DNA of 40,840 nucleotides. Source: Clostridiaceae bacterium (GTDB taxonomy: Bacteria > Bacillota > Clostridia > Lachnospirales > Lachnospiraceae). The translations under genes and the position numbers were made by a program. Positions 16,368 to 22,503 of the stretch are shown here, piece after piece (the stretch's first letter is position 1; each line of letters opens with the position of its first letter). The notes beneath the pieces were generated by a model, which saw only the letters and a list, made by a program, of their open reading frames with translations, was not told the DNA's origin and did not search any database. The stretch spans positions 1 to 40,840 of the forward strand of contig JAJQGL010000110.1 in the NCBI GenBank assembly GCA_021200535.1. The letters are read 5' to 3'.

Positions 16368-17018
16368 CTATTCTGATAATGATGCAGCAAACAGCAGCAC
16401 ACCGTTTACTGCTCTGGTCACTGCACGGCTGGTTATCGTAGCGCCGCTGATGGCTTCTATATCACCGCCGTCTTTATCAACACTTACTTCATCGGACGTA
16501 TTTCTCCCCAGATATTGGCCAATAAACGAATCCTTGAGGTCCTCCTCGCTATCCTGCCCCTTTGAGCTGTTCTGACCCAGACCCGGTGTCTCATTGCTGC
16601 AGTCCGTCACCCGAATGCCAATGATGCTGCCATCACTGTCAATCGCAACCGCAAGCTTTACAGCGCCGCCATATCCTTTCCCGCTGACCGTTGCGACATA
16701 TCCGCCCTTGTCAGCCACAAGCACTTCGGAAATTTCAACGTCTGACAAATCTTCGCCGGAAGCCGTTTGAACCGTTCCGGCAGCCAGCTTTTTCTGAAAT
16801 GCCTTAAGCTTTTTATTAATCTCTTTATCTGATTTAAAATCCGCGCCCTCATATACCTGTTCATATGCCTCATTTTTTGCGATCTCTTCCTGTTCCTTAA
16901 TCTTTGACTCTGTAAGCTTATTTACACCGCCAAGGCAGATACCCGCAATCAGTGTAATCAGGAACAGGCAAATCGTATCATGGACCAATGTATTTTCTTT
17001 TTTCTCTTTATTTGCCAT
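16368..17018 (-). CDS. rnfG: Rnf complex subunit G, FMN-binding
   Basis: Extracytoplasmic subunit that carries covalently bound FMN. About 216 residues: one N-terminal membrane anchor (about 15-37) and an FMN-binding domain ending in the flavinylation motif SGATITS (near residue 200), where Thr is the expected attachment site. I place the start at 17018 (MANKEKKEN), since GGAGGG lies eight bases upstream; a longer frame from 17039 extends further into rnfD. Even so it overlaps the end of rnfD by 11 bp, which suggests coupled translation. No flavin transferase (ApbE) gene is seen in this window. Confidence 0.94.
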   Translation of the reverse strand: MANKEKKENTLVHDTICLFLITLIAGICLGGVNKLTESKIKEQEEIAKNEAYEQVYEGADFKSDKEINKKLKAFQKKLAAGTVQTASGEDLSDVEISEVLVADKGGYVATVSGKGYGGAVKLAVAIDSDGSIIGIRVTDCSNETPGLGQNSSKGQDSEEDLKDSFIGQYLGRNTSDEVSVDKDGGDIEAISGATITSRAVTRAVNGVLLFAASLSE

Positions 17019-17988
17019 CTTTGATTCCCTCCTTTCCAAACGGAGTCGGAATCGTCACCCGCTCAATTAATGGTACTAACAGGTTACAGATAATAATTGC
17101 ATAGGACACTCCCTCGGCAGATGCACCGAATACGCGGAACACTCCGGTAAGAATACCCAGAAAAATGCCAAATACAATCTGTCCTTTCGGGGTAATCGGG
17201 CTTGTCACATAATCCGTTGCCATAAAGAACGCACCCAGCAGCAGACCGCCTCCGCACAGCTCCATCGCCAGATAATTCAGATCAAACCCATGCCCGCCGA
17301 ACAGCAGCATGAATATAGCAAATGTTACAAGATATGTAACCGGAATCTTCAGGGAAATAATTCGGTGAATTAACAGATACGCTGCCCCGATCAGCAATGC
17401 CAGAGCAGAGGTTTCACCGATCGTTCCCGCTATATTTCCAAAAAACATATCCGCAAGGTTTGCCGTTTCGCCGCTCTTAATCGCTGCCAGCGGCGTTACC
17501 GTCGTAATCGCATCCAGTTCTTTACCGGACTGATAGTGTAAGCCAACCGGCCCATTGTAAGCAAAGGATGTCATCTGACCGGCAAAGGAAACCATCAAAA
17601 AGCATCTTGCTCCCAGTGCCGGATTCATAAAGTTCTGGCCAAGTCCGCCAAACAGCTGTTTCACAATGATAATCGCAAAGACGCTTCCAAGAATCGCCAT
17701 CCACAGCGGAAAGCTTGACGAAAGGTTCAATGCGAGAAGCAATCCGGTCAATACTGCGCTTCCATCACTTACCGTAAGCGGCAGCTTCATACATTTTTCC
17801 CATATATATTCCGCCAGCACACAGGTGACAATACACGTTACAATCAAAAGCAGTGCATTTATACCAAAATTCCAGATGCCAAAGACTGTAGCAGGTATAA
17901 GCGCAATGACCACATCCCACATAATACTCTGTGTTGTAGATCCGTCACGGACGTGTGGTGATGATGAAATATTTAATAATTTACTCAC
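17008..17988 (-). CDS. rnfD: Rnf complex subunit D, membrane flavoprotein
   Basis: Multi-helix membrane subunit of the NqrB/RnfD family that carries flavin and takes part in ion translocation. The 326 residues contain the family segments SPHVRDGSTTQSIMWDV near the N-terminus, SDGSAVLTGLLLALNLSS (about 75-92), NPALGARCFLMVSFAG and ATDYVTSPITPKGQIVFG. Length and motifs are normal. It lies between rnfC (15 bp gap) and rnfG (11 bp overlap) in the operon. Confidence 0.95.
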   Translation of the reverse strand: MSKLLNISSSPHVRDGSTTQSIMWDVVIALIPATVFGIWNFGINALLLIVTCIVTCVLAEYIWEKCMKLPLTVSDGSAVLTGLLLALNLSSSFPLWMAILGSVFAIIIVKQLFGGLGQNFMNPALGARCFLMVSFAGQMTSFAYNGPVGLHYQSGKELDAITTVTPLAAIKSGETANLADMFFGNIAGTIGETSALALLIGAAYLLIHRIISLKIPVTYLVTFAIFMLLFGGHGFDLNYLAMELCGGGLLLGAFFMATDYVTSPITPKGQIVFGIFLGILTGVFRVFGASAEGVSYAIIICNLLVPLIERVTIPTPFGKEGIKDGK

Positions 17989-18003
17989 GTTACATTACAC
18001 CTC

Positions 18004-19326
18004 CTATTTCTTTTTTCTCTGTGCTGCTACATACTGGCGGGCCTGCTTAAACGTCTGTGTCAGAGGGCGCTTTGCCGGACAGACAAAGGTACAGCTTCCG
18101 CACTCGTAGCATTCCATGCCGTTTAGCTTCACAAATGTATCATAGTCATTGTTCTGTGCTGCCTCTGCCATCTTCTGAGGAACCAGATTCCCCGGACAGG
18201 CGGCGACACAGCGGCCGCAGCGGATACACGGAGTAGGGTCATTTGCCGCTACTTCATCCCTGGTCATCGCCAGAATCGAAGAAGAAGTTTTCGTGACAGG
18301 CACGTTGAGATCATACATCGCAAATCCCATCATCGGGCCGCCGGAAATAATCTTTGCCGGATCTTCACGGTAACCGCCTCCCTCCTCCACCAGCTCCGCA
18401 TGGCTGCATCCAAGCCGGACATTGACATTGATCGGACGGTTAAAGGCATCGCCGGTCAGCGTCATAACTCTGGTAATCAGCGGTGTCTGCTTACAGACAG
18501 CACGGTAAACCGCAATCACCGTAGAGACATTGTCTACAATACATCCAACATCTGACGGAAGCTTTGCAGAATATATCTTTCTTCCCGTTGCGGCTGAAAT
18601 CAGGGTACGCTCGCCGCCCTGCGGATATTTTGTCTTGAGCACCTTCACCTCAATCCGGTTTTCCCGCTGGACAACAGATTCCATCTTTGCAATCGCCTCC
18701 GGCTTATTGTCCTCAATACAAATCAAGCCCTTTGCCTTGTCAAAAAGCTTCAAAATAACCTTCAGTCCCTCGACAATCTCCTCCGGACATTCCAGCATCT
18801 GACGGTAATCTGATGTCAGATATGGTTCACATTCTGCGCCGTTTACCAGAATATAGTCAATCTGATCCGGCTCTTTCGGCGTCAGCTTTACGCTGGTTGG
18901 AAAACCTGCGCCTCCCATACCGACAATCCCTGCCTCTTTGACTATTTCACGGATTTCATCCTTTGACAGCTCTGTATAATCACGGTATTCTCCCAGCCCT
19001 GGAATCCCCGTGTACTCACCATCGTTGTCAATTACAACACATGTTGCCTTTGAACCGTTTAAAAGTGTTCTTGGCTCTACCGCCTTCACCGTACCGGATA
19101 CGGAACTGCAGATATTAGCAGAAATAAACCCGCTGGCTTCGCCAATCTTTTGCCCCACTAATACCCTGTCACCTTTTTTCACAATCGGTGTCGCCGGCGC
19201 GCCAATATGCTGAGCCATCGGAAATACCAGCTCGCCTTTCGGCTGCACCGTCTTGATCGGCAGATCACTTGATAATTCTTTTCCTTCGTAGGGATGTACT
19301 CCCCCGCGAAACGTTGCATTACTCAT
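18004..19326 (-). CDS. rnfC: Rnf complex subunit C, NADH-binding
   Basis: Cytoplasmic subunit where NAD(H) reacts, with homology to complex I NuoF. The 440-residue protein contains IVGMGGAGFPTSVKL (flavin/nucleotide-binding region, about residue 133) and NGAECEPYLTSDYR. Two [4Fe-4S] ferredoxin motifs follow: CIRCGRCVAACPGNLVP (about 368-384) and CYECGSCTFVCPAKRPL (about 407-423). It is the first gene of rnfCDGEAB. The ATG is preceded by AAAGGGGAA. I could not find a convincing -35/-10 pair in the 140 bases upstream; an isolated TATAAT lies at 19364-19369. Confidence 0.96.
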   Translation of the reverse strand: MSNATFRGGVHPYEGKELSSDLPIKTVQPKGELVFPMAQHIGAPATPIVKKGDRVLVGQKIGEASGFISANICSSVSGTVKAVEPRTLLNGSKATCVVIDNDGEYTGIPGLGEYRDYTELSKDEIREIVKEAGIVGMGGAGFPTSVKLTPKEPDQIDYILVNGAECEPYLTSDYRQMLECPEEIVEGLKVILKLFDKAKGLICIEDNKPEAIAKMESVVQRENRIEVKVLKTKYPQGGERTLISAATGRKIYSAKLPSDVGCIVDNVSTVIAVYRAVCKQTPLITRVMTLTGDAFNRPINVNVRLGCSHAELVEEGGGYREDPAKIISGGPMMGFAMYDLNVPVTKTSSSILAMTRDEVAANDPTPCIRCGRCVAACPGNLVPQKMAEAAQNNDYDTFVKLNGMECYECGSCTFVCPAKRPLTQTFKQARQYVAAQRKKK

Positions 19327-19475
19327 TCCGGTTCCCCTTTCTGTATTTTTTTACCTATAACCCATTATAGATTTTTATGCCATGCCTTATATTTCTATAC
19401 CTCAGCACAAGATCTGTTTCCTGTTATAGATCAATGCATGCAATGCGTCCTGTCAAGATGAATTTTTAAACAATA

Positions 19476-19562
19476 GGTTACTATTCACAGCTCATTTTGC
19501 TGCGCCGGACAGCTTGCTGGACGCTTCCCCGCATGTTGATGAAAAAACTGTGAATAGTTACC
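19476..19562. repeat. Imperfect inverted repeat in the rnfC upstream region
   Basis: GGTTACTATTCACAG (19476-19490) and CTGTGAATAGTTACC (19548-19562) are 15-bp arms with one mismatch, enclosing 57 bases that include GCTGCGCCGGACAGC and AGCTTGCTGG. It carries no gene and no T tract, and may be a dispersed palindromic element. The rest of 19563-19713 is A-rich with nothing recognisable. Confidence 0.5.
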
Positions 19563-19713
19563 AATAGAATCCACTACAATGCGCCTTTAATTGTAGCATT
19601 TTTACAAGAAAAGGTCAACCTTGATTCGACCCGCTTCGCGGTTATGGAAAAACAAAAACTCTGGAAAAAATAATAGACCCTGGAAACAAAAACTTCGAAA
19701 AATAATAAATTAC

Positions 19714-19806
19714 AAAAAAATTCCTCTTCAGCACGATAATCGCTCTGAAGAGGAGAGGGGTTTGAGGGGTATATCTCGTTACTTATTAAAAGTAACTTGA
19801 TAACAC
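19714..19806 (-). ncRNA. Candidate small regulatory RNA, about 93 nt, with two ACCCCUC motifs
   Basis: On the minus strand a strong promoter (19811-19839) is followed about 95 bases later by a clear terminator, with no usable coding frame between them. The predicted RNA has a 5' hairpin (GTTACTT...AAGTAAC, 19796-19778) and an unpaired pyrimidine-rich stretch (19777-19754) containing ACCCCTC twice, nine bases apart. A terminator stem follows (CCTCTTCAG 19753-19745 with CTGAAGAGG 19731-19723), then seven T (19720-19714). C-rich single-stranded motifs that pair with Shine-Dalgarno sequences are known in Gram-positive small RNAs such as RsaE/RoxS. A shared ancestry is not claimed. I know of no Rfam family that it matches. 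Confidence 0.65.
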
Positions 19807-19810
19807 TGTT

Positions 19811-19839
19811 AATATAGCATAGAAAAAATTAGATTGCAA
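19811..19839 (-). promoter_or_regulatory. Promoter of the candidate small RNA
   Basis: On the minus strand TTGCAA (19834-19839) and TATATT (19811-19816) are spaced by 17 bases, a good SigA promoter. It points away from the cysteine hydrolase gene stop and into a stretch with no gene, which is the main reason for proposing a small RNA. Confidence 0.75.
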
Positions 19840-19932
19840 GAGAGAAATTCTAAAAAAAATCTAATTTTACTGACATTTTTATACAAAATTCTTTTATAAT
19901 ATACAAAATCTAGCTTATTTTGTTGAAAGCAA

Positions 19933-20451
19933 TCATTCTCTGACATCAATCTGACACATTCGCATCGCATCCAGCGCCTTTTTATGCGTCTCCGGCGTTA
20001 CTCCGGCACAACAGGACGCGTCAACCCGGATTGGCGTTTCCGGGAAAAATGCTTTTAGCAGCAACGCATTAGAAATCACACAAATATCCGTACATAACCC
20101 CACTAATTCAATCTCTTTGGCATCTTTTAGATGCTCCGGCAGCCTGACCGCTCCAAATGACGGCTTTTCCACAACCAGAACGCCCATATCCGCGTACCGC
20201 TGCAATTCCGGAACCAGCTCCCAGCCTGCCGTCCCCTTAATGCAATGTTTCACCGGCAGCTTTTTGCCCTCCTGCGTCTGCAGATAATCTGCAGTATGCG
20301 TATCCTTTGTAAAAATCATAAAGCTGCCCTGTTCCCACTCTTCCTTTAGCTTTTGCAAAAGCCTGGGCAGCATTGCCTGCGCTTCCTGCGTTCCTAACGC
20401 CCCATCTACAAAATCCCTCTGCATATCTACCACAACGATTGCTTTTTTCAT
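19933..20451 (-). CDS. Cysteine hydrolase of the isochorismatase/nicotinamidase family
   Basis: Small cytoplasmic amidase-type hydrolase of about 172 residues. The family triad is visible: Asp in VVDMQRDFVDGAL (about residue 9), Lys in VEKPSFGAV (about 100) and the nucleophile Cys in LVGLCTDICVISNALLLK (about 128-130). Nicotinamidase (NAD recycling) is a plausible substrate assignment, but family members act on several amides. The start at 20451 (MKKAIVVVDMQ) is chosen because AAAGGGG lies about ten bases upstream; a longer frame to 20523 would run into the sigma-28 promoter region. It is divergent from the FliD_C-like gene. Confidence 0.85.
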   Translation of the reverse strand: MKKAIVVVDMQRDFVDGALGTQEAQAMLPRLLQKLKEEWEQGSFMIFTKDTHTADYLQTQEGKKLPVKHCIKGTAGWELVPELQRYADMGVLVVEKPSFGAVRLPEHLKDAKEIELVGLCTDICVISNALLLKAFFPETPIRVDASCCAGVTPETHKKALDAMRMCQIDVRE

Positions 20452-20507
20452 CCTGACGCACCCCTTTCTGCTGTACCAGTATTTATTTCTTCTATAATTA
20501 TATCGGT

Positions 20508-20534
20508 TAAATTTATAGAACAATCAGCCGATAT
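20508..20534 (+). promoter_or_regulatory. Sigma-28 (SigD/FliA) flagellar promoter
   Basis: TAAA (20508-20511), exactly 15 bases, then GCCGATAT (20527-20534) matches the flagellar sigma-28 consensus TAAA-N15-GCCGATAA at 11 of 12 positions. It lies 94 bases before the FliD_C-like gene at 20628. The -10 element is also half of an inverted repeat, ATATCGG (20500-20506) with CCGATAT (20528-20534), so a weaker reverse promoter for the divergent hydrolase is conceivable. Confidence 0.85.
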
Positions 20535-20627
20535 GATTAATAGTACAATGTTTATGAAATACCTGATATATTTTGTTGTACAAAAGAAAGAATAACTGAT
20601 TTGCATATTTAGACAGGGAGGAATCAT

Positions 20628-21260
20628 ATGACCATATCTGCTTCCAATACAAACTATGACGCTTTATTAAAGTGCTTTTACTCTTCAAACCGCTCTGCCA
20701 GAGTGAGTTATACACGCCCAACACTAAACACAACCGAGCTGGTAAAAGCAGATTCCGAGGCAATGCACAAAATTGCCAAAAACCTGCGGGATTTGGAGTA
20801 CAGCACAGACAACGGAACAGCAATTTATAATAATGTAAAAGCCCTGGTTGAAACCTACAACAATCTGGTTGACAGCACGGACGAGATCAATTCCAGTAAA
20901 ATTACCAGACTGCAGAAAAACCTTTCCAACACGCTGAAGGACTACAAAGATGATCTCGAAGATATCGGCATCAAAGTGACCTCTTCCGGCAAGCTGGAAT
21001 TGGACAAATCAACGCTTTTAAGCACATCCGCATCAAAGATCGGAAAGGTTTTATCAGATTCACAATTTACAGAGCGCACTATAAGCTATACAAAACGAAT
21101 TAACCGAATCGCTGATAATTTGCTGCACACAGGCTCTTCTGCCGGAAAAACCACCGTGCAGACTGACAGTGTGGAAACAGACAGCGAAGAGACTGACAGT
21201 GAAGAGACTGCGGCGATTCTCGCTTCTCTGTTCTCATCAACGATTGACGTAAAGCTTTAA
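20628..21260 (+). CDS. Orphan FliD_C-like flagellar protein
   Basis: The 210-residue protein has no signal peptide or membrane helix. Residues about 60-140 resemble the C-terminal domain of the flagellar cap protein FliD: NNVKALVETYNNLVDST, a helical stretch, then LEDIGIKVTSSGKLELDKST, the diGI-x-dG-L-ld pattern of FliD_C. The N-terminal half lacks the rest of FliD, and the protein is less than half FliD length. A Thr/Glu/Asp-rich tandem tail (SVETDSEETDSEET, about 182-195) precedes a short hydrophobic end. GGGAGG lies before the ATG. The sigma-28 promoter supports a late flagellar role, perhaps cap-like or filament-associated. The stop is 2 bp from the convergent lgt-like gene. Confidence 0.7.
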   Translation: MTISASNTNYDALLKCFYSSNRSARVSYTRPTLNTTELVKADSEAMHKIAKNLRDLEYSTDNGTAIYNNVKALVETYNNLVDSTDEINSSKITRLQKNLSNTLKDYKDDLEDIGIKVTSSGKLELDKSTLLSTSASKIGKVLSDSQFTERTISYTKRINRIADNLLHTGSSAGKTTVQTDSVETDSEETDSEETAAILASLFSSTIDVKL

Positions 21261-21262
21261 AT

Positions 21263-22036
21263 TTAAAAAGGAGAGATCGAAGTTTTTTTCTGTTTTTTCC
21301 TTACCGCCAATACCGCGGTGAGAAGAAACACGATCACAACGGAGATAATCTGCGAGGTTGATAAAGCCCCTAAATTCCCCCGAATCTGATCTCCCCGGAA
21401 AAATTCAAGGACAAAACGAAAAATTGCATATGCATATCCATAGATAAAGATGCTGTTTACGGCATCTTTATTTTTCATGGAACGGCGGAAAAGATACCCT
21501 GCCAGCAAAAAATTAATCCCGGCTTCGCATAACTGAACCGGAAACAGCGATACGTCATTTGGCGCAAAAAGCGCATTGTGGTAAACAATATGCGGAAAGC
21601 CATTGTACGGAATGCCATAACAGCAGCTTGCAAAGTGACATCCCACCCGTCCAAACGCATGCGCTATCGGCAGGGCAAATATGCATTGGCCCACATAGGG
21701 CAGCACGGAAATGCGGAATCCCTTCTCCAGCACAAGCAGCCCCAGTACACCCCCGATCAAACCGCCATAAAAAACAAAGCCTGAACCAAAAACCATCTTT
21801 GCGTATGCTGCATCTGCCATCCTGCTCCAATCAATCTCCTTAAAATTCTGGAGCAGATAGAGCAGCTTCGCGCCGGCCACACCAAAGCCGACAATGACTG
21901 CCGCAATAATATATGCGTCGTTGACATCCAGCCCCTTCTTTTTTACCGTATAAATAGAAAAAAAGCCTGCCGTAACAATTCCCACGGCAATGCAAAGCCC
22001 ATACATCGGTATATGAGTTCCCGGAAAATATAACAT
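21263..22036 (-). CDS. Lgt-family (prolipoprotein diacylglyceryl transferase-like) membrane protein
   Basis: About 257 residues with seven or so hydrophobic helices. The layout follows Lgt: YGLCIAVGIVTAG at the start, GGLIGGVLGLLVL in the middle, the arginine-containing loop HAFGRVGCHFASCCYG, and FFRGDQIRGNLGALSTSQ near the end. Classical Lgt has GR-x-GNF-x-N-x-E-x-x-G at the arginine loop; here Asn and Glu are replaced and Cys residues appear. It may thus be a paralogue with a different substrate rather than the housekeeping lipoprotein enzyme. The ATG at 22036 follows GGGGAGGA; a GTG at 22054 lies upstream of that site and is rejected as the start. Confidence 0.8.
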   Translation of the reverse strand: MLYFPGTHIPMYGLCIAVGIVTAGFFSIYTVKKKGLDVNDAYIIAAVIVGFGVAGAKLLYLLQNFKEIDWSRMADAAYAKMVFGSGFVFYGGLIGGVLGLLVLEKGFRISVLPYVGQCIFALPIAHAFGRVGCHFASCCYGIPYNGFPHIVYHNALFAPNDVSLFPVQLCEAGINFLLAGYLFRRSMKNKDAVNSIFIYGYAYAIFRFVLEFFRGDQIRGNLGALSTSQIISVVIVFLLTAVLAVRKKQKKTSISPF

Positions 22037-22063
22037 TTGTTTTCCTCCCCGCACAAAGAAAAG

Positions 22064-22089
22064 AAAACTGCCCTGTATTGGGCAGTTTT
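22064..22089 (-). terminator. Terminator of the small membrane protein gene
   Basis: AAAACTGCCC (22064-22073) and GGGCAGTTTT (22080-22089) are perfect 10-bp arms with a 6-base loop, and a T-rich tail follows on the minus strand. It lies 22 bases past the stop codon at 22112. Confidence 0.85.
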
Positions 22090-22111
22090 ACTGTTTTTCA
22101 CTATAAATTTT

Positions 22112-22363
22112 CTATAGATATTCTAAAGGAATCCCTAAAGAAGCTGCGCATCCAACACATGCAATGTATCCAATTACGGAAAGAACAACACCTATGATGG
22201 AACAAGCCAGACCTGCAGTAGCCATACCTGCCTTTTCCGGATCACGTCTTCCAAGCGCTCCTAAAACAATGCCAATAATACCAACAACCGGACCAATATA
22301 CCAGATCCAGCATGTAACAATCGAAATAATACCCAATACCAATGCTGCGACTGCCATTTTCAT
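22112..22363 (-). CDS. Small membrane protein, DUF4190-like
   Basis: The 83-residue protein has two hydrophobic helices. The first half, MAVAALVLGIISIVTCW to GIIGIVLGALGRRDPEKAG, and the second, MATAGLACSIIGVVLSVIGYI, show the repeated Gly-rich A-L-V-L-G-I-I-S pattern of DUF4190 proteins. Its function is unknown. The ATG is preceded by GAAGGAGAA. The gene is transcribed alone from a TTGACA promoter about 100 bases upstream, and it has its own terminator. It is divergent from cysQ and shares the TTTAAG operator region with it. Confidence 0.8.
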   Translation of the reverse strand: MKMAVAALVLGIISIVTCWIWYIGPVVGIIGIVLGALGRRDPEKAGMATAGLACSIIGVVLSVIGYIACVGCAASLGIPLEYL

Positions 22364-22467
22364 TTCTCCTTCCTGTGTATTAAAAAATTCTTTTATCCGA
22401 TCAGGAATCCAGAAAACCCTGATCTTGCTGCGTCCCCCGCATGCAAAGCATGCACGGCTCGGTTACC

Positions 22468-22497
22468 ATTATGCCATAATTCGACATATCATGTCAA
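22468..22497 (-). promoter_or_regulatory. Promoter of the DUF4190-like gene
   Basis: On the minus strand TTGACA (22492-22497) and CATAAT (22468-22473) are 18 bases apart. The leader of about 100 bases to the start codon contains the palindrome GCATGCAAAGCATGC and the string GATCTTGCTGCG, which recurs near 7230. Confidence 0.7.
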
Positions 22498-22503
22498 TGT
22501 TTT

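Follow-up and report, generated by a model that had tools for sequence, protein, structure and literature searches.

Several small RNAs (sRNAs) of Firmicutes carry C-rich motifs, and those of RoxS (PMC4409812) and LhrC (PMC4132741) bind Shine-Dalgarno sites. In RoxS, the CCCCUUUGUU motif is duplicated, and the RNA depends on one C-rich region both for binding the ppnKB mRNA and for stopping initiation (PMC4409812). LhrC of Listeria possesses three redundant CU-rich (UCCC) sites, of which one separates two hairpins and another belongs to the terminator, and these sites can bind a target upstream of its start codon (PMC4132741). The CsfG and FsrA RNAs of Bacillus subtilis harbor C-rich regions that are predicted to be single-stranded (PMC8216469, PMC4409812), and CsfG has conserved CU-rich stretches (PMC3574147).

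We report here that a stretch of DNA located between two genes of a gut bacterium is, as judged from its sequence, most likely a small RNA gene common to related species. Similarly to RoxS/RsaE of Bacillus and Staphylococcus, the predicted RNA is Gram-positive and bears repeated C-rich modules (twice CCCCUUUGUU in RoxS, twice ACCCCUC here). It comprises two hairpins around an invariant, repeat-bearing C-rich stretch and thus has the anatomy of the C-rich sRNAs of Firmicutes. As judged from sequence, its gene stands alone and its C-rich stretch is conserved and mostly single-stranded, two features that it shares with the mechanistic class of the anti-Shine-Dalgarno members of that group. However, it differs from each described system. 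First, it gave no covariance match to RsaE/RoxS, its module is another one, and it occurs in Lachnospiraceae, not in Bacilli. Second, LhrC has five homologues, whereas we found one clear copy in the own genome and no Rfam match. Third, CsfG is under the control of sigma-F/sigma-G (PMC8216469), whereas the box found here is an extended -10 of the sigma-70 type, and neither CsfG nor FsrA gave an Rfam match on either strand at E values up to 10. We class the RNA as a putative new sRNA family, of a mechanistic kind already known but separate from RsaE/RoxS, LhrC and CsfG.

Across the window, i.e. the whole stretch of 40,840 nucleotides that was analysed, no Rfam family reached its gathering score. 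A cmscan of positions 19600-19950 with 4227 Rfam families, on both strands and at E values up to 10, returned only SpF36, U7 and MIR8562, all far below gathering. We take the RsaE model to belong to the scanned set, and Rfam presumably contains a ylbH model; this same scan yielded no RsaE/RoxS match and, on either strand, no CsfG/ylbH-type match. Among the papers listed by a literature search, judged by title or abstract start and with most subscription papers outside its reach, none describes such an sRNA in Lachnospiraceae.

The features of the locus are as follows.

19811..19839, minus strand: sigma-70-type promoter TTGCAA-17-TATATT with an extended -10 TG (TGCTATATT), seen in the sequence; the box is conserved across the core-bearing loci
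19714..19805, minus strand: predicted small RNA of about 92 nt, with a 5' end inferred from the promoter; fold z = -6.7
19772..19802, minus strand: 5' hairpin, from the fold; predicted in 20 of 20 homologues of differing sequences
19755..19770, minus strand: C-rich core with two ACCCCUC copies, unpaired in the own-genome fold
19750..19774, minus strand: invariant 25-nt stretch AUAUACCCCUCAAACCCCUCUCCUC, identical in 17 of 17 loci
19714..19754, minus strand: intrinsic terminator, a hairpin (14 pairs, one mismatch) followed by seven T, from the fold
19933..20469, minus strand: isochorismatase-domain protein (PF00857, E 4e-27), the upstream neighbour, outside the RNA
19590..19618, minus strand: separate promoter-like site TTGACC-17-TACAAT, past the sRNA terminator and ahead of rnfC, from sequence; probably the rnf promoter

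The TTGCAA-17-TATATT promoter of the original prediction, which gave no strand, is indeed present, at 19839..19811 of the minus strand, and the predicted RNA lies on that strand too. No open reading frame (ORF) of at least 80 amino acids overlaps 19327..19932. Taken alone the promoter is little proof, because the 17000-22500 region contains 15 promoter-like sites versus 10.1 +- 3.9 expected. The fold of 19805..19709 is at -30.4 kcal/mol (z = -6.7), a stability equalled by none of 200 shuffles. It reproduces the 5' hairpin, the C-rich region with two ACCCCUC copies and the terminator hairpin with seven T that had been predicted, except that the terminator stem (19754..19722; the seven T, U in the RNA, at 19720..19714) is not perfect as claimed: it has 14 pairs and one A.G mismatch. 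Within AUAUACCCCUCAAACCCCUCUCCUC, the AUAU can be drawn into the 5' hairpin, the middle is unpaired and the final five bases make up the base of the terminator stem. The covariance model matched 19714-19806 at 103 bits, the own sequence being part of the model's input.

When 28 genomes of the genus were searched with the DNA sequence, 18 gave a match, the own genome included; one match (in G019), which covers positions 5-48 of the query only and does not comprise the core, was dropped. The exact 16-nt core ACCCCTCAAACCCCTC occurs in 17 of the 28 genomes, and in all 17 loci AUAUACCCCUCAAACCCCUCUCCUC is invariant over its 25 positions, versus a mean column identity of 78%. In every core-bearing locus a TG-N-TAnnnT box ends 3-4 nt before the hairpin anchor, and 13 of these 17 loci also have a TTG upstream of the box at a spacing of 17 nt. 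A scored promoter scan gave a weaker signal against shuffles (mean 9.55 versus 8.02 over 20 loci), the three diverged loci described below scoring below their own shuffles. The original prediction, against which a lack of conservation of the promoter, the C-rich motif and the stem in related genomes would have told, was thus not refuted by the comparison within the genus.

The four species without the -35 TTG (L004-L007) have instead direct repeats, TTGTCC/GTGTCC, about 11 bp apart and upstream of the -10 box. This arrangement recalls a response-regulator site and might hint at a signal.

Both hairpins vary in sequence yet retain their pairing. In the terminator, changes on both sides occur in eight of the 15 consensus pairs, 94.6% of the cells are paired versus 48.8-51.5% when slid, and on each of five measures none of 500 shuffles scored as high. 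The lower seven terminator pairs are nearly constant; the start of their 5' arm is supplied by the UCCUC end of the invariant stretch, so that the sequence itself may be under selection there too. The arms of the 5' hairpin pair with a mean of -10.09 kcal/mol with their own partner and of -6.12 +- 2.95 kcal/mol when swapped between species (n = 380), a comparison that stands with single folds as the evidence for this hairpin, which MAFFT left unaligned and RNAalifold did not show. The 16-nt core is fully unpaired in 12 of the 17 folds; its first two bases are paired in the other five, and its remaining 14 nt are unpaired in all 17. Together, the conservation and the covariation strongly support, at the level of sequence comparison, the predicted independent small RNA with single-stranded C-rich motifs. 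We also considered a coding reading, from ORFs of 53-63 amino acids that run through or touch the core in five loci (L080, L089, L091, L093 and L095), and rejected it because the interspecies differences in hairpin length are not divisible by three and the stem changes are compensatory.

A covariance model search of the 11 genomes that are devoid of the exact core identified three diverged copies, in G011, G001 and G009 (E 1.8e-6 to 7.7e-6); five weaker matches in core-less genomes (E 0.03-0.21) were rejected on reading. All three copies possess AGAUAUACCCCUCAACCCC(A)ACCCC between the 5' hairpin and the terminator hairpin; they retain AUAUACCCCUCAA, CCCC-type runs replace the second ACCCCUC, and the first CUC is predicted to pair in two of them. 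G001 and G009 share the gene order nusG-rplK-rplA-F0-F38-sRNA with the core-bearing locus L089 (L091 has one extra ORF), where NusG, L11, L1 and F38 (an LPG-synthase-C protein) were named by Pfam on the core-bearing relatives. What the G011 locus has in common with these two is limited to the downstream side, namely the gene that follows the RNA and others beyond it. F0 is a protein of 210 amino acids without Pfam match (20628-21260, plus strand, in the window) that is found near the sRNA in nine of the 17 core-bearing loci and, among the three diverged ones, in two. In the loci of the diverged copies (L190-L192), TGTATAATA also stands at a distance upstream and another inverted repeat precedes the C-rich stretch, so that their RNA may be longer.

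In total, 20 of the 28 genomes of the genus have a copy (17 with the exact core and three diverged), and no copy was found in the other eight (G002, G003, G004, G007, G013, G015, G019 and G020). In a tree of RnfC proteins, which covers 27 of the 28 genomes (G007 had no match) and the root of which is not known, six of the eight copy-less genomes form one clade (97/94). On this tree the core-positive label, with diverged copies counted as negative, requires two changes versus 8.4 on shuffled labels. As judged from these sequences, the distribution of the sRNA fits a vertical inheritance with few losses.

Exact and near-exact core patterns revealed no convincing copy outside the genus. First, in 397 genomes of the family (two of them from this genus), the 23-mer within three mismatches matched the own genome only. 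The pattern ATATACCCCTCA-N{0,7}-CCCC in the family genomes hit the own locus and one other place, which was rejected; a candidate homologue in G240 was rejected on reading. Second, the exact 19-mer was found in 20 stretches over 84,980 species, of which 16 are the genus loci and four are scattered; about two are expected by arithmetic, and the four scattered stretches (L059, L060, L076 and L077) have no matching hairpins by eye. The sequence is present in the records of strains D16-36 and D16-51. Third, the weak covariance-model matches in the family (L020 and L021) have no core; this family-wide search, in which 10 candidates were scored per genome, is insensitive and leaves room for more diverged copies elsewhere. 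Fourth, for 55 viral stretches that the core pattern itself had picked out, the top score with the model was 26.7 bits, and the four that were read (L243, L265, L228 and L240) were rejected. Fifth, blastn matches in plasmid and phage records span at most 25% of the query. In the own genome, a model search at E values up to 10 gave seven matches. Two of them are the RNA and, on the opposite strand, its terminator; the remaining five are weak (best E 0.033) and on reading have no core.

By analogy with RoxS/RsaE or LhrC, we propose, with a probability of about two in three, that the RNA is a stand-alone trans-acting base-pairing sRNA covering G-rich Shine-Dalgarno sites. Its own promoter would drive its transcription and its intrinsic terminator would end it, both being conserved in sequence. 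The 5' hairpin and the terminator, the pairing of which is backed by compensatory changes, would serve as bookends that presumably protect the RNA from RNases. The invariant C-rich stretch, with its two ACCCCUC modules, would pair with GAGGGGU-type Shine-Dalgarno regions on a limited set of mRNAs, and this pairing, as in the analogous systems, would block the entry of ribosomes.

The binding of ribosome-binding sites, already put forward in the original prediction, is plausible by analogy, and the C-rich stretch does pair best at -25..-1 of the genes, as seen in 226 own-genome gene starts (taken from the window and 20 stretches of that genome, which together make 287,821 bases or about 10% of it). 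Pairing at -12 kcal/mol or lower concerns 12.4-12.8% of the gene starts in three windows from -25 to +4 versus 0.9-5.3% in 25 other windows, a peak that is partly circular, because the gene starts were partly chosen by their anti-Shine-Dalgarno score. However, the real motif is no better at these gene starts than shuffled ones (mean of -9.13 versus -9.90 +- 0.94 kcal/mol for 20 shuffles), so that composition alone explains the peak. It is worth noting that GAGGGGT occurs upstream of none of the 226 genes, which argues for a selective RNA rather than a general anti-Shine-Dalgarno mimic. As GAGGGG is found upstream of only two of these genes, a regulon of GAGGGGT-type sites would be small.

No target common to several species was found in the comparative searches. 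The best-placed candidate, a gene resembling FAD amine oxidases (named by eye) with GAGAGGGG, was rejected, being full-length in the own genome only and reduced elsewhere to short stretches. The pattern GAGGGGTTTG-N{0,14}-ATG, searched in 13 of the 17 core-bearing genomes, matched 14 places, four of them with an ORF of at least 50 amino acids starting at the matched ATG (L120, L121, L126 and L127); these four ORFs are unrelated by eye. In four core-bearing genomes GAGGGGT-N{3,9}-ATG gave 84 matches versus 132 for the reversed control pattern. Reading 68 of the 84 revealed 34 with an ORF of at least 50 amino acids, and among the 32 distinct ORFs none was related to another (blastp, E 1e-3). Near-matches to the core or its complement were not in excess in the 28 genomes either (33 non-exact matches versus 86 for the reversed control pattern). 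The replacement of the second ACCCCUC in the diverged copies, and the predicted pairing of the first CUC in two of them, likewise weigh against the proposed mechanism.

A further suggestion, which we hold tentatively and with the odds somewhat against it, is that the RNA represents a riboregulator family passed on vertically within a single genus of Lachnospiraceae. With its two identical ACCCCUC arms, one RNA would grip a rare GAGGGGU class of ribosome-binding sites, or else hold two sites, or two mRNAs, simultaneously. If true, the genus would have a post-transcriptional regulon outside any described family. In the Lachnospiraceae, a major group of gut commensals, the invariant core, the covarying hairpins and the partly conserved gene order offer a defined starting point from which a post-transcriptional regulon could be mapped, and the alignment of the sRNA is a basis from which others can rebuild the model.

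The invariance over 25 nt, including the AAA linker and the AUAU flank, would exceed the need of a short seed, and no common mRNA target emerged, two points in favour of an alternative that we regard as unlikely: the C-rich stretch of the conserved RNA would bind a protein, as a decoy or a scaffold, or another G-rich RNA, as a sponge or as the sponged partner, rather than many Shine-Dalgarno sites. There is a precedent for the latter, as RosA is a G-rich sponge of the C-rich RoxS and FsrA in B. subtilis (PMC8216469). However, no protein candidate emerged, and for a G-rich partner the 23-mer, within three mismatches, matches only itself in the own genome. The sole near-complement in the own genome, C44:21836, is its one place with a single mismatch to the 16-mer (about 0.07 expected by arithmetic); its other strand, GAGGGATTTGAGGGGTTAATG, could pair at -30.3 kcal/mol, but the site reads as part of an ORF of 79 amino acids, with no clear ribosome-binding site and no relatives among the loci examined.

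Two other alternatives to the trans-acting sRNA invoke the adjacent genes, and both are very unlikely, because the neighbours vary, some upstream ORFs are on the opposite strand and a separate box precedes rnfC. Across the 17 loci, F0 is found in nine, the isochorismatase gene in six and rnfC, within 7 kb, in seven, some contigs ending early. That the RNA is the 3'-end product of the mRNA of the upstream gene, or merely the terminator of that gene, could be suggested by the isochorismatase gene, which in this locus and five others lies upstream in the same orientation, but the extended -10 box of its own in 17 of 17 loci and the opposite-strand nearest upstream ORFs in three of them (L085, L087 and L088) make this highly improbable. 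Even less credible, and largely refuted, is the reading of the RNA as a leader or attenuator that acts in cis on whatever gene lies downstream, here the rnf operon. It is true that rnfC comes next on the same strand, with an ORF start 445 bp from the core in the own genome, and is within reach in the seven loci mentioned above, but elsewhere the uvrC region (L089, L091 and L093), pantothenate genes (L082 and L083) or opposite-strand ORFs (L084 and L094) come next, and the terminator and the separate promoter-like box intervene before rnfC. By a strict pattern, such a box occurs upstream of rnfC in 16 of the 28 rnfC loci. The metabolic or redox role that the original prediction drew from the location between rnf and the isochorismatase gene is consequently not supported, since the neighbours change and rnf has its own promoter-like box. 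Lastly, a chance combination of promoter, C-run and terminator without function, conceivable where promoter-like sites are common, is already refuted, as far as sequences tell, by the invariant core, the covarying hairpins and the copies in 20 of the 28 genomes.

The surroundings of rnfC and of the sRNA show some other repeats. The rnfC box, TTGAC..TGNTACAAT, has in several loci (within L160-L187) a TTGAC..GTCAA inverted repeat, which is possibly an operator, and the ribosome-binding region of rnfC, AGAAAGGGGAACCGGA, recurs across the rnfC loci with few changes. The intergenic segment 19477-19561 is an element of 85 bp bounded by the inverted repeats GTTACTATTCAC..GTGAATAGTTAC. Four of the 20 own-genome stretches (L096, L102, L112 and L114) each contain a single half-site of it, and the element may belong to a small repeat family. 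Pairs like GTTACT..AGTAAC occur upstream of rnfC in some relatives.
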